Shown in pieces: positions 3,664 through 13,838 of a stretch of 28,586 nt of DNA (position 1 is its first letter; the number at the start of each line of letters is the position of its first letter). The stretch is from Buchnera aphidicola (Lipaphis pseudobrassicae). GTDB lineage: Bacteria > Pseudomonadota > Gammaproteobacteria > Enterobacterales > Enterobacteriaceae. The translations under genes and the position numbers were made by a program. Under the pieces are notes generated by a model. That model did no database searches. It was not told the DNA's origin and saw only the letters and a list, made by a program, of their open reading frames with translations. The DNA lies in assembly GCF_005081185.1 (NCBI RefSeq), contig NZ_CP034870.1:612636-641221 (forward strand), written 5' to 3'.

Positions 3664-4640
3664 TTAGCAACGATCTAATGGAAAAGACATTACTTTACTA
3701 ATACTTTTTTCATTTAAAATTAACATAATTAATCGATCTAAACCTATCGCAATTCCTGAACAATGAGGTAAACCAGAAGATAACGATTCAAGAAAAAAAT
3801 CATCTATTTCTTGTATAGGAATGTTCATAGAAATACGTTTTTTATTATCTTCAATAAAACGTTTTTTTTGTTCATGAACATTTGTCAGTTCATAAAATCC
3901 ATTCCCTAATTCTATTCCTTTAAAAAAAAATTCAAATCTTTCTGCAATACGGGAATCTTTTGGATGAATTGAAGCAAGACATGCCTGTTCTGCGGGAAAA
4001 TGATAAACGAACAAAGGTCTTTTTTTCCCTAGTTTAGGTTCTATGCTCAATGTAAACAACAATTGTATTAATTGATGTATATTGTTTTCAAAATAAGTTA
4101 AATGATCTAATTTTAATTTTTTAGATATTTTTTTTAATTCCGATAAATTAGTAGATAAAGGATCTATATTTAAGAATTTTATAAATACGTCTTGGTAAGA
4201 AATTTTATCTGATTTGCCCCGATTTAATATGATTTGAAGAAACTGATCTATTTCCTTCATAAAATTTTTCATTGAATAAAATGGTTGATACCATTCTAAC
4301 ATAGTAAATTCTGGATTGTGATATTTACCTAGTTCTTGATTTCTAAAACAATGAGAAATTTGATATATAGCACCACTTTTTGCAGCTAACAAACGTTTCA
4401 TATGGTATTCTGGACTAGTAATTAACCATAATTTTAATTTTTCAAAATTATCTAATGAAAAATAGTTTGTATTAAAAGAAACTAAATTTAAATCAGTAAC
4501 AGTTGAACGAGATAGAATAGGTGTATCTACTTCCATAATTTTTTTTTGAAGGAAAAATAAACGAATATCAGAAATAATTTGTGATCTTTTGATTAAGTTT
4601 TTAATTGAAGCACTAGGTTTCCAGAGATTTTTTTTTTCAT
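3664..4640 (-). CDS. epmA: EF-P--(R)-beta-lysine ligase EpmA (PoxA/GenX/YjeA), frameshifted in a poly(A) tract at codon 2-5
   Basis: EpmA is a class II lysyl-tRNA-synthetase-like enzyme that attaches (R)-beta-lysine to translation factor EF-P. From ATG 4536 an uninterrupted 290-codon frame covers motif 2 (CFRNQELG, then HNPEFTMLEWY) and motif 3 (GIAIGLDRL). E. coli EpmA (325 residues) has about 35 more N-terminal residues. These exist here: the same frame continues upstream of 4536 for 31 codons encoding LWKPSASIKNLIKRSQII and more, closely matching E. coli. The initiator ATG is at 4640-4638 with AAGAGAA before it, but it is followed by ten A residues (4637-4628) that put it out of frame. One extra A (A11) would restore an uninterrupted protein of about 325 residues. 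So the gene is a single-base frameshift form, probably rescued by slippage. Initiation at 4536 would lose a conserved helix. Confidence 0.88.
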
Positions 4641-4738
4641 ATCAATTCTCTTAAATATTTATTATTTAAATATAAGAAATAAAAATTGTATACTAAATAG
4701 TATTATAAATCAAAAACCAATACTTACATAAAAAAAAT

Positions 4739-5236
4739 ATGAATAAAACTGCAATATATCCAGGAACATTTGACCCAATTACTTATGGACACCTAGATAT
4801 TATAACTCGATCGACAAAAATATTTGATAATATAATTGTTGCAATTTCAAATAATTTAAGAAAAAAACCTATTTTTAATTTAAAAGAACGAATAGAGTTA
4901 ACTCGTATTACTACATTACATCTCAAAAATGTGAAGAAAATACTTGGTTTTAATGATTTACTTGCAAATTTAGCAAAAAAAGAAAAAACTAATATTTTAA
5001 TTAGAGGAGTACGAACAATATTTGATTTTGATTATGAGCTAAAATTAGCTGCTATAAATAAACAGATTTATCCAGAGTTAGATAGTATATTTTTACTTTC
5101 TTCTAAAGAAGTTTCTTTTATATCTTCATCTTTTGTTAAAGAGATTGCTAAATATAAAGGTGATACAAAACCATATCTTCCCAAAGCAGTACATTTTGCA
5201 TTATTAAAAAAACTTAATAATATCAATGAACTATAA
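4739..5236 (+). CDS. coaD: Phosphopantetheine adenylyltransferase CoaD
   Basis: CoaD transfers AMP from ATP to 4'-phosphopantetheine, giving dephospho-CoA, the next-to-last step of coenzyme A synthesis. The 165-residue product is slightly longer than E. coli CoaD (159). The nucleotidyltransferase T/HxGH motif is in the YPGTFDPITYGH segment, with His18 as the key residue. The second signature is SFISSSFVKEIA near 121-132; the phosphopantetheine-binding segment IRGVRTIFDFDYE lies near 87-99. ATG 4739 follows an A+T-rich leader without a clear ribosome-binding site. It is divergent from epmA (98-base gap) and convergent with the orphan gene, separated by a strong hairpin. Confidence 0.95.
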   Translation: MNKTAIYPGTFDPITYGHLDIITRSTKIFDNIIVAISNNLRKKPIFNLKERIELTRITTLHLKNVKKILGFNDLLANLAKKEKTNILIRGVRTIFDFDYELKLAAINKQIYPELDSIFLLSSKEVSFISSSFVKEIAKYKGDTKPYLPKAVHFALLKKLNNINEL

Positions 5237-5259
5237 TATGTATTCTAATTTTGTTAAAA

Positions 5260-5296
5260 TATAATAGGGCATATTAGATATATATGCCCTATTATA
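5260..5296. terminator. Bidirectional terminator between coaD and the orphan gene
   Basis: TATAATAGGGCATAT (5260-5274) and ATATGCCCTATTATA (5282-5296) form a perfect 15-bp stem with a 7-base loop. It sits between two convergent genes. The GGGC/GCCC core is exceptional for such A+T-rich intergenic DNA. A-rich sequence on one side and AAAATTAGTTTATTT on the other make it usable from both strands. Confidence 0.8.
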
Positions 5297-11694: not shown

Positions 11695-12039
11695 ATGAAA
11701 GAAATAATTTTAAACGAAAAAAATAATTTTTTTACTTTAGTAAATAATTTGTTTCAAAAAATAGAAGATACTTTAAATTTATATGAGAATGAAATTGATA
11801 TAGATTATGAAGTTCAAGATTATGTTATGACTATTAATTTTTCAAATAAAAGTGTTATTATAATTAATAAACAAGAAGTATTAAAACAAATTTGGTTAGC
11901 AACTAAAGTAAATGGATATCACTTTAATTACAATAAAAATGAATGGATTTGTAATCGTAGTAACAAAAACTTTTGGGAAATATTTGAACATGCATTTTTT
12001 ATGCAATCAAATAAAAAAATTTTTTTTTATGAAAGATAA
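11695..12039 (+). CDS. cyaY: Frataxin-like iron-sulphur assembly protein CyaY
   Basis: CyaY is the bacterial frataxin: it binds iron and modulates cysteine desulphurase IscS during Fe-S assembly. The 114-residue product aligns with E. coli CyaY (106) with a longer tail. Conserved features are the acidic first helix, the DIDYEVQ strand, the IIINKQEVLKQIWLATK segment and GYHF...EWICNRS. Several acidic residues of the E. coli iron-binding ridge are replaced by Asn/Lys here, in keeping with the A+T bias. An excellent AAGGAG lies before the ATG, and a TATAAT-like box at 11667-11672 could be its -10. Its partner IscS is encoded at 21947. Confidence 0.93.
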   Translation: MKEIILNEKNNFFTLVNNLFQKIEDTLNLYENEIDIDYEVQDYVMTINFSNKSVIIINKQEVLKQIWLATKVNGYHFNYNKNEWICNRSNKNFWEIFEHAFFMQSNKKIFFYER

Positions 12040-12130
12040 TTTTTTTAATATAAAAAATATGCTAAAGTTTTTTTTGTATTTAAATTTTATAATGTGTAAA
12101 TAAAAAATAAAAAAATGCTCCTATTTTAAT

Positions 12131-13087
12131 ATGAATTGTAATATGCAAAATAAAACATTAAGAATTGCTACTAGAAAAAGTCCTTTAGCTTTACAGCAAA
12201 CCAAATATGTTCAAAAAAAAATACTATCTTTATATCCAAATTTAAATATAAAATTGGTACCTATTGTTACTCATGGAGATAATATTTTAAAAAAATCTCT
12301 TTCAAAAATCGGCGGAAAGGGATTATTTATAAAAGAATTAGAAATTGCTCTTCTAGAAAATAAAGCTGATATTGCAATTCATTCTATGAAAGATTTACCG
12401 GTAAATATCACCAAAGAATTATGTTTAGTTAGTATTTGCAAACGAGGAAATCCTTTAGATACATTAGTATCTAATCACTATAAGTCAATTGATAATTTAC
12501 CTAAAGGGGCTATAGTTGGAACATCTAGTTTAAGAAGGCAATGCCAATTAATTACTTATAGACCTGATTTAATTGTATCTCCTTTAAGAGGCAATGTAGA
12601 AACGAGAATTGCAAAATTAGATCAAGGAAAATATGATGCAATCATTCTTGCTACAGAAGGATTAAATAGATTAAATTTACAACATCGAATTACTCAAATT
12701 ATACCTGCAGAACTATCTCTTCCCTCATGTGGACAAGGTGCAATTGGTATTCAATCAAGAGCGCATGATAAAAAAGTATTATTTTTTTTATCACATCTTA
12801 ATCATATAAATACTTTTATTGAAATTAATGCAGAAAGAGCATTTTGTAGGAAACTTAATGCGGGATGTCAAATTCCAATAGGAAGTTATGCTATAATAAA
12901 AAATGATAAAATTTGGTTAAGAGGATTAGTAGGATCACCTAATGGAAAAATTATATTAAAGGGAGAAAGAATAGATTACTATAACAAAACAGAAAAAATG
13001 GGATATTCTCTTGCTGAAGAATTATTAAAAAACGGAGCAAAAAAAATTCTTGAAGAACTCTATTTAAAAGAATCTTATTATATATGA
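12131..13087 (+). CDS. hemC: Porphobilinogen deaminase (hydroxymethylbilane synthase) HemC
   Basis: HemC condenses four porphobilinogen molecules into hydroxymethylbilane. The 318-residue product aligns throughout with E. coli HemC (313). The dipyrromethane cofactor is carried by the Cys in AGCQIPIG (about residue 246). Conserved substrate segments are LRIATRKSPLAL, HSMKDLP, GTSSLRRQCQL and LRGNVETR. The start may be ATG 12131 or ATG 12143 (second Met, MQNK); neither has a convincing ribosome-binding site. The TGA stop overlaps the hemD ATG (ATGA at 13084-13087), so the pair is translationally coupled as in E. coli. In Buchnera the product probably feeds sirohaem for sulphite reductase rather than haem; this is inference. 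Confidence 0.95.
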   Translation: MNCNMQNKTLRIATRKSPLALQQTKYVQKKILSLYPNLNIKLVPIVTHGDNILKKSLSKIGGKGLFIKELEIALLENKADIAIHSMKDLPVNITKELCLVSICKRGNPLDTLVSNHYKSIDNLPKGAIVGTSSLRRQCQLITYRPDLIVSPLRGNVETRIAKLDQGKYDAIILATEGLNRLNLQHRITQIIPAELSLPSCGQGAIGIQSRAHDKKVLFFLSHLNHINTFIEINAERAFCRKLNAGCQIPIGSYAIIKNDKIWLRGLVGSPNGKIILKGERIDYYNKTEKMGYSLAEELLKNGAKKILEELYLKESYYI

Positions 13088-13838
13088 AAATATTAGTAAT
13101 TAAGCCTGTTGTATCAGGAAAAAAATTAGTTAAAAAATTGAAAAAAATAGGTATAAATTCTTGGAATTTTTCTTTTTTTGATTTTTTTCCTAGTAATAGT
13201 TCAATCAATTTATCAAATAAGATTAATGAATTATATAAATCAAATATAATTGTTTTGTTTTCTAAACAATCTGTTTATTATACAAATTTATATTTAAATA
13301 CTAATAATTTAAAATGGCCTGATTCTGTAAAATATTTTACTATTGGTAAAAGTACTGCACTTTTTCTTTATAAATATATAAAAAAAAAATTTTTTTTCCT
13401 ATACACGAAAATAGCGAAAGTTTGTTAAATATATTATATAAAAAATTATTAAAAACAGATATTATAACATTATTACAAGGTGAAAATGGACGTAAATTAG
13501 TAGAAAAAAATTTAATAAAAAATAATTTTAATGTTGCTACTATAGAATGTTATAAAAGAATTTTAAAAAAATTAGATATTAACAAAGAAGTTAAAAAATG
13601 GTATTCATACAAAATAAATACTCTTGTAGTAACAAGTAGTGAAGTTTTATATCATATGCAAAATACTATTTTTATTTTTAATAAAACCCATTGGTTATTA
13701 AAATGTAAAATATTTGTAGTAAGTATTAGATTGTTTAAAATTGCGAAACAGTTAGGATGGAAAAATATAATAGTATCTAATTTTGCTAATAATGATTGTT
13801 TAATAAAAATAATTAAGAGAGAACTATTTAATCCATAG
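13084..13838 (+). CDS. hemD: Uroporphyrinogen-III synthase HemD, frameshifted in an A10T8 tract
   Basis: HemD closes and inverts a ring of hydroxymethylbilane to give uroporphyrinogen III, the branch point to sirohaem and haem. The frame from ATG 13084 encodes the first 103 or so residues (MKILVIKPVVSGKKLVKKL; WPDSVKYFTIGKSTALFLY aligns with E. coli WPRLPDYFAIGRTTALALH) and runs into a stop at 13426. The other half is in the frame one base earlier: IHENSESLLNIL, LLQGENGRKLVEKN, IECYKRI, LVVTSSEVL and HWLLKCKIFVVS match E. coli HemD to its end. The switch falls in ten A (13380-13389) followed by eight T (13390-13397). One added base gives about 251 residues, against 246 in E. coli. The second half has no own ribosome-binding site; a start at 13422 (ATG) would begin mid-domain. 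Confidence 0.88.

Follow-up and report, generated by a model that had tools for sequence, protein, structure and literature searches.

Tamas et al. are said to have described, in 2008, the rescue of genes in Buchnera and Blochmannia by transcriptional slippage on poly(A) runs. We here consider three genes that are off frame at such runs, namely an orphan gene, hemD and epmA, within a stretch of 28,586 nucleotides (hereafter, the window) that forms the terminal part of the 641-kilobase (kb) chromosome of Buchnera aphidicola from Lipaphis pseudobrassicae (contig NZ_CP034870.1, positions 612,636 to 641,221). Slippage rescue in endosymbionts is summarised as established in a passage of PMC5009743. 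According to a section of PMC3164680, individual Buchnera genomes carry 1–18 homopolymer frameshifts, four genomes hold 69 pseudogenes, 42 of which occur in just one of them and stem from homopolymer mutations, and some have been suggested to regulate expression. The window resembles these cases in that AT-rich symbiont genes leave their frame at a long A run while the far side of the break is still constrained. It departs from them in that the described breaks have mostly been read as recent and independent events, whereas the site in the orphan, read here from DNA, is nearly genus-wide and fixed in length.

Programmed transcriptional realignment, as in dnaX of Thermus thermophilus (nine As) and in mxiE and type III secretion genes of Shigella, offers a second comparison: there, as here, a conserved homopolymer of at least eight bases sits at a conserved frame transition. 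Criteria for such systems are given in a section of PMC3711429. A homopolymer of at least eight is found in both the orphan (A9 in 33 loci) and hemD (A9–A10), and a conserved site in at least five homologous genes is likewise found in both (29/34 and 21/35 loci, respectively, all in one genus). Unlike in the known systems, the site is confined to that genus, and the evidence consists of DNA rather than of two functional products and slipped transcripts. The −1 ribosomal frameshifting of the Escherichia coli type of dnaX, on A_AAA_AAG, shares with the orphan the direction of the shift and an A-rich heptamer, but the orphan keeps nine As, contains no AAG and has no stimulators that we could find. 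In the open-licence papers searched, we saw no description of a frameshift conserved in hemD or the orphan of Buchnera. The near genus-wide, length-fixed orphan site, the hint at a fold for this protein and the recurrence of the −1 phase in hemD appear to be new.

With a probability of about 0.62, we take the three breaks to be sites of RNA polymerase slippage on poly(A) rather than signs of dying genes, and to be selectively maintained in the orphan and, probably, also in hemD. In these two genes, selection would maintain an A run in −1 phase; full-length protein would then arise from the share of transcripts whose run has gained one A through RNA polymerase slippage, so that the run would fix a low and constant output. 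Slippage insertions would rescue only alleles that are one base short, and this could give rise to the common phase. Three points here are inferred: it is the polymerase, not the ribosome, that shifts the frame; the cell does produce full-length protein; and a low dosage is of use. In a passage of PMC5574713, 151 of 157 insertions in Buchnera transcripts fell in homopolymers, with an RNA:DNA hybrid length of nine being used there, and a passage of PMC5009743 gives 12–50% corrected transcripts for frameshifted endosymbiont genes.

Frames and tract lengths of the three genes were taken directly from the window by translation, and the homologous region was fetched from 34 of 35 same-genus relatives, giving 35 loci with the window itself. 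The genome without a DapF match (G029) was left out; this same-genus search replaced a first scan of genome contigs with DapF, from which none of 40 pattern-matching stretches was confirmed. On the minus strand, the open reading frame of the N-terminal part (N-part) of the orphan (6423..6830, 135 amino acids) passes the tract and ends at a stop of its own. The tract is an A9 run directly preceded by a G (6444..6452), and the open frame of the C-terminal part (C-part; 5344..6462, 372 codons plus stop) lies in −1 relative to the N-part, with its first ATG only at 6207. The gene was found in Buchnera only, with relatives in 34 of 36 genomes and 34 of the 35 examined loci. It is absent from G024 and from G029, and in the latter, which also lacks DapF, the region may be missing. 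Of the 34 gene-bearing loci, 33 are broken, and every one of these has a run of exactly A9; 29 of the 34 combine G-A9 with a C-part in −1, the N-part being open into the tract in all 29. In one locus, L070, the orphan is a natural single open frame, reached by a different route.

A long run need not disrupt a gene: of 24 coding-strand runs of at least nine As in the genes of the window, 21 read as lying in an open frame, hence long runs alone do not account for the breaks. For comparison, we followed in-frame control tracts (229 tract-by-species cases in seven intact genes, many being one site in different species). Exactly nine As were kept in 42–46% of near pairs and 14% of far pairs, and at least nine in 74% of the former but 28% of the latter; a site in hemC, the control kept best, has at least nine in 72%. 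Between the two closest species, 0.056 units apart, intergenic A/T runs of at least nine were altered in length in 12 of 27 comparisons, a figure combining two overlapping ascertainments, and coding runs in 0/58 and 3/62. When the intergenic rate is crudely scaled to the whole tree (about 4.6–4.8 units), about 54 changes are predicted, with 0 observed in the 29 G-A9 orphan loci; the off-frame orphan run thus acts like a constrained coding run. Ratios of nonsynonymous to synonymous substitution rates (dN/dS) indicate that the downstream parts are still under purifying selection, with values of 0.19–0.47 for the orphan C-part in all of the 12 pairs but one (L053–L054, 0.84) and of 0.15–0.68 for the hemD parts, leaving out pairs with L041. 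The 12 pairs were hand-picked and covered the orphan, hemD and control genes, with epmA outside the set. Control dN/dS exceeded 1 in four instances: those for hemC and hemD in L041–L045 concern degraded genes and that for rsmJ in L057–L058 broken ones, and the value for hemC in L056–L058 is unexplained.

The second gene, hemD, encodes uroporphyrinogen-III synthase on the plus strand. Its N-part (13084..13428) scores over the cut-off for Pfam PF02602, the frame changes at an A10T8 double run (13380..13397; A10 at 13380–13389, T8 at 13390–13397), and the C-part (13374..13838), placed by frame reading and relatives, is open in −1 relative to the N-part. This phase recurs in 24 of the 35 loci, 21 being broken at the window's tract, which is A9–A10 among them, and three (L058, L059 and L060) at a different A tract. 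hemD is in frame in five loci (L049, L051, L054, L065 and L068), degraded or multiply broken in L041, L056 and L057, and without a match in L062. Parsimony favours an off-frame root for the orphan (4 versus 6 steps), for hemD (7 versus 9) and for the comparison gene murF, discussed below (6 versus 7 or 8). An old and maintained break is best supported for the orphan and plausible for hemD, with murF left open.

For epmA, encoding the EF-P β-lysine ligase (3664..4640, minus strand, by family matches and frames), such a history is unsupported. The gene goes off frame right after its start codon, at an A10 tract (4628..4637) that on the coding strand lies immediately 3′ of an ATG; its conserved frame, the −1 frame, has no ATG, GTG or TTG before 4536, and a 290-amino-acid part scores over the cut-off for NCBIfam TIGR00462 and NF006828. 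Among the 35 loci, the start-proximal break is common to three close species only (the window, L039 and L040). Breaks at other A tracts, identical in phase, occur in L056 and L070; epmA is in frame in 20 loci, and in 10 the fetched stretch holds no match or a degraded gene. Most likely, the epmA break is a younger, tolerated case of the slippage.

The original prediction had grouped the three breaks into one slippage class, programmed or tolerated. Its core stands, in that epmA (A10), the orphan (A9) and hemD (A10T8) are all broken at poly-A runs in −1 phase. That all of them lie in A runs proved right for epmA and the orphan, and the hemD break may be located in the T run rather than the A run. 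The notion of one kind of event, as put forward, finds no support in their ages, which differ, the epmA break belonging to three species, that of the orphan being nearly genus-wide and that of hemD being present in most species. Of the two options, a programmed or selectively kept site is best supported for the orphan, and a tolerated one for epmA. It had further been noted that no frameshift was found in the other genes. Homology comparison against the 34 relatives over window positions 2801–18800 flagged hemD as the sole frameshifted gene, but the same comparison overlooked the breaks in epmA and the orphan and is thus not exhaustive. Outside these positions, the check consisted of family matches, which were near-full in profile for rho, ilvC, ilvD, iscS, iscU, hscB, hscA, fdx and der and covered 645 of 668 profile positions for rep; hslV and hslU were not included.

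The class in one phase extends beyond this locus. Homology over 400 kb in each of three genomes gave 23 breaks, of which four were dropped for masked bases (a scan of 400–560 kb in G026 and G031 was kept out of this tally). An A or T run of at least eight lies at the junction in 15 of the 19 left, and 14 of these 15 are in −1 phase (binomial p about 0.001, the breaks not being fully independent); one of the 15 has T runs only, two of them are murF from different genomes, and a few contain long gaps without alignment. Among the four breaks without a run, three are in −1 phase. For murF, 24 of 30 loci read are off frame, 23 of them in −1 phase, and six are in frame; in five further genomes, outside the 30, the gene is visible as split matches only. 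Beyond murF, which is off frame at the same site in G000 (the genome of the window) and in G031, a scan for conserved off-frame genes noted no second case in the sampled 400 kb, the scan returning ordinary gene junctions besides breaks.

Where does the common phase come from? Deletion bias would likewise yield a single phase, but the proposed bias at ancestral A10/A11 runs finds little backing: polarised intergenic run changes comprise eight deletions versus five insertions (looser settings, partly overlapping counts), and strict settings leave four insertions versus two deletions (noncoding, two overlapping anchors). Because a phase ratio of 14:1 stands against this intergenic 8:5 (Fisher p 0.07), deletion bias alone explains the common phase poorly, although the test is small and its outcome suggestive. 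Survivorship is a simpler account: insertions in transcripts fall in homopolymers, and one-base-short alleles are therefore the type that slippage can rescue.

Several observations weigh against slippage sites kept by selection. In L042, L044, L052 and L053, the orphan reads T-A9 with another frame relation, the base adjoining the run having been lost or altered. hemD is in another phase in L052 and L053 (2/35), as is murF in one locus, and a mutT-like frame of the window's own genome (G000:C1:221462), seen in a frame scan with masked bases nearby, shows the opposite phase at its A10 break. The orphan N-part has dN/dS values of 0.50–1.28 in the 10 pairs computed of 12, and its amino acids are therefore hardly constrained, though the frame is open in 29 loci. 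The part of PMC5574713 available to us reports that no frame-restoring transcription error was detected in Buchnera. Likelihood fits, finally, do not decide the root state of the orphan or of hemD, and for murF they prefer a root in frame, followed by repeated breakage. The last point also belongs to a different scenario, tolerated erosion, wherein A runs shrink repeatedly, slippage rescues enough product, the broken state is unselected and the phase stems from rescue or contraction bias. We regard this as conceivable rather than probable. It agrees with the narrow distribution of the epmA break, with the different tracts at which hemD is broken in L058, L059 and L060 and its intact frame in five loci, and with passages of PMC3164680 in which murF has homopolymer frameshifts in several Buchnera, taken as four independent inactivations. 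However, the orphan run has been static in length over a tree on which intergenic runs vary within 0.056 units, and intergenic indels show no strong bias towards deletion (8 to 5).

Full-length protein might instead be made through −1 frameshifting by ribosomes on the A run. The direction of the shift fits, and a slippery heptamer, A_AAA_AAA, lies within the orphan's A9, but nine As are kept although seven would be enough, and the tract Lys codons are all AAA in 29/29 G-A9 loci, with no AAG among them (control genes: 114/144 Lys triplets AAA). A Shine–Dalgarno-like stimulator was found within 22 nucleotides upstream of the tract in 0/33 loci, and folding downstream was unremarkable in six loci (z −1.6 to 1.3). 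Unstimulated shifting is possible; still, because of the nine As, the uniform Lys codons and the lack of stimulators, we prefer slippage by RNA polymerase and deem a ribosomal shift unlikely. It is doubtful, too, that the orphan C-part forms a gene of its own with its own start, in which case no frameshift would exist. The databases do list C-part proteins only (296–374 amino acids, 14 clusters, from a search confined to the 7995 candidates with the most words in common), and constraint on the N-part is weak. The C-frame, however, opens just before the tract, and its first ATG lies deep inside in most loci (at 85 codons in the window's copy); even so, the tract and its phase do not vary, and L070 has a single open frame. 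This argument concerns ATG starts, and a non-ATG start is conceivable. As for homopolymer errors in sequencing or assembly, some platforms are prone to them in long A runs, and L052 and L053 are phase exceptions in hemD as well as in the orphan, yet the phase is identical in tens of distinct genomes and the same collection contains runs as long as A10 to A14, making this explanation highly improbable. The deviation of L052 and L053 from their relatives in these two genes may be either real or a property of the assemblies.

What might a slippage-dependent orphan protein do? Neither the L070 protein nor the window's C-part matched Pfam or NCBIfam over the cut-off, and the best Pfam expectation value (E-value) among 15 relatives was 0.003, in one member only. 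For the C-terminal domain (window 5344–6207), the top nine structural matches of each of two AlphaFold2 models, of low or modest confidence, were to the EspG/VirA effector fold, and a profile search of PDB chain sequences gave no match at E up to 10; any likeness to these effectors would lie in the fold, not in sequence. As a tentative suggestion, genus-wide programmed slippage might set the output of a protein with an EspG/VirA-like C-terminal domain that leaves the bacterium via the retained flagellar type III apparatus and acts in the aphid cell, and the N-part, present only in the frame-changed product, might be its export signal. Co-occurrence with flagellar export was considered as evidence and set aside as uninformative, the export-gate family PF00771 being present in 36/36 genomes. 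Among Buchnera proteins that might be delivered into the host, the orphan would be a candidate open to testing. If frame loss is indeed selectively kept across the genus, some ‘pseudogenes’ of reduced genomes would be working genes set low, and counts of gene loss would need revision. In a section of PMC9116674, frameshifted coding sequences were removed as likely pseudogenes and murF was counted as lost in some Buchnera, yet a cell wall was labelled in one such species.

Some further breaks and runs were noted in passing. Homology pointed to more single-lineage −1 breaks at A10–A11 runs, in G000 (327549 and 384532) and in G026 (216497, 291779 and 344922). In both L057 and L058, rsmJ (about 6117–6195) likewise goes off frame at an A10 tract, in −1 phase. 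Lastly, an A21 run at G000:C1:612416-612436, just upstream of the window, exceeds every run inside it.

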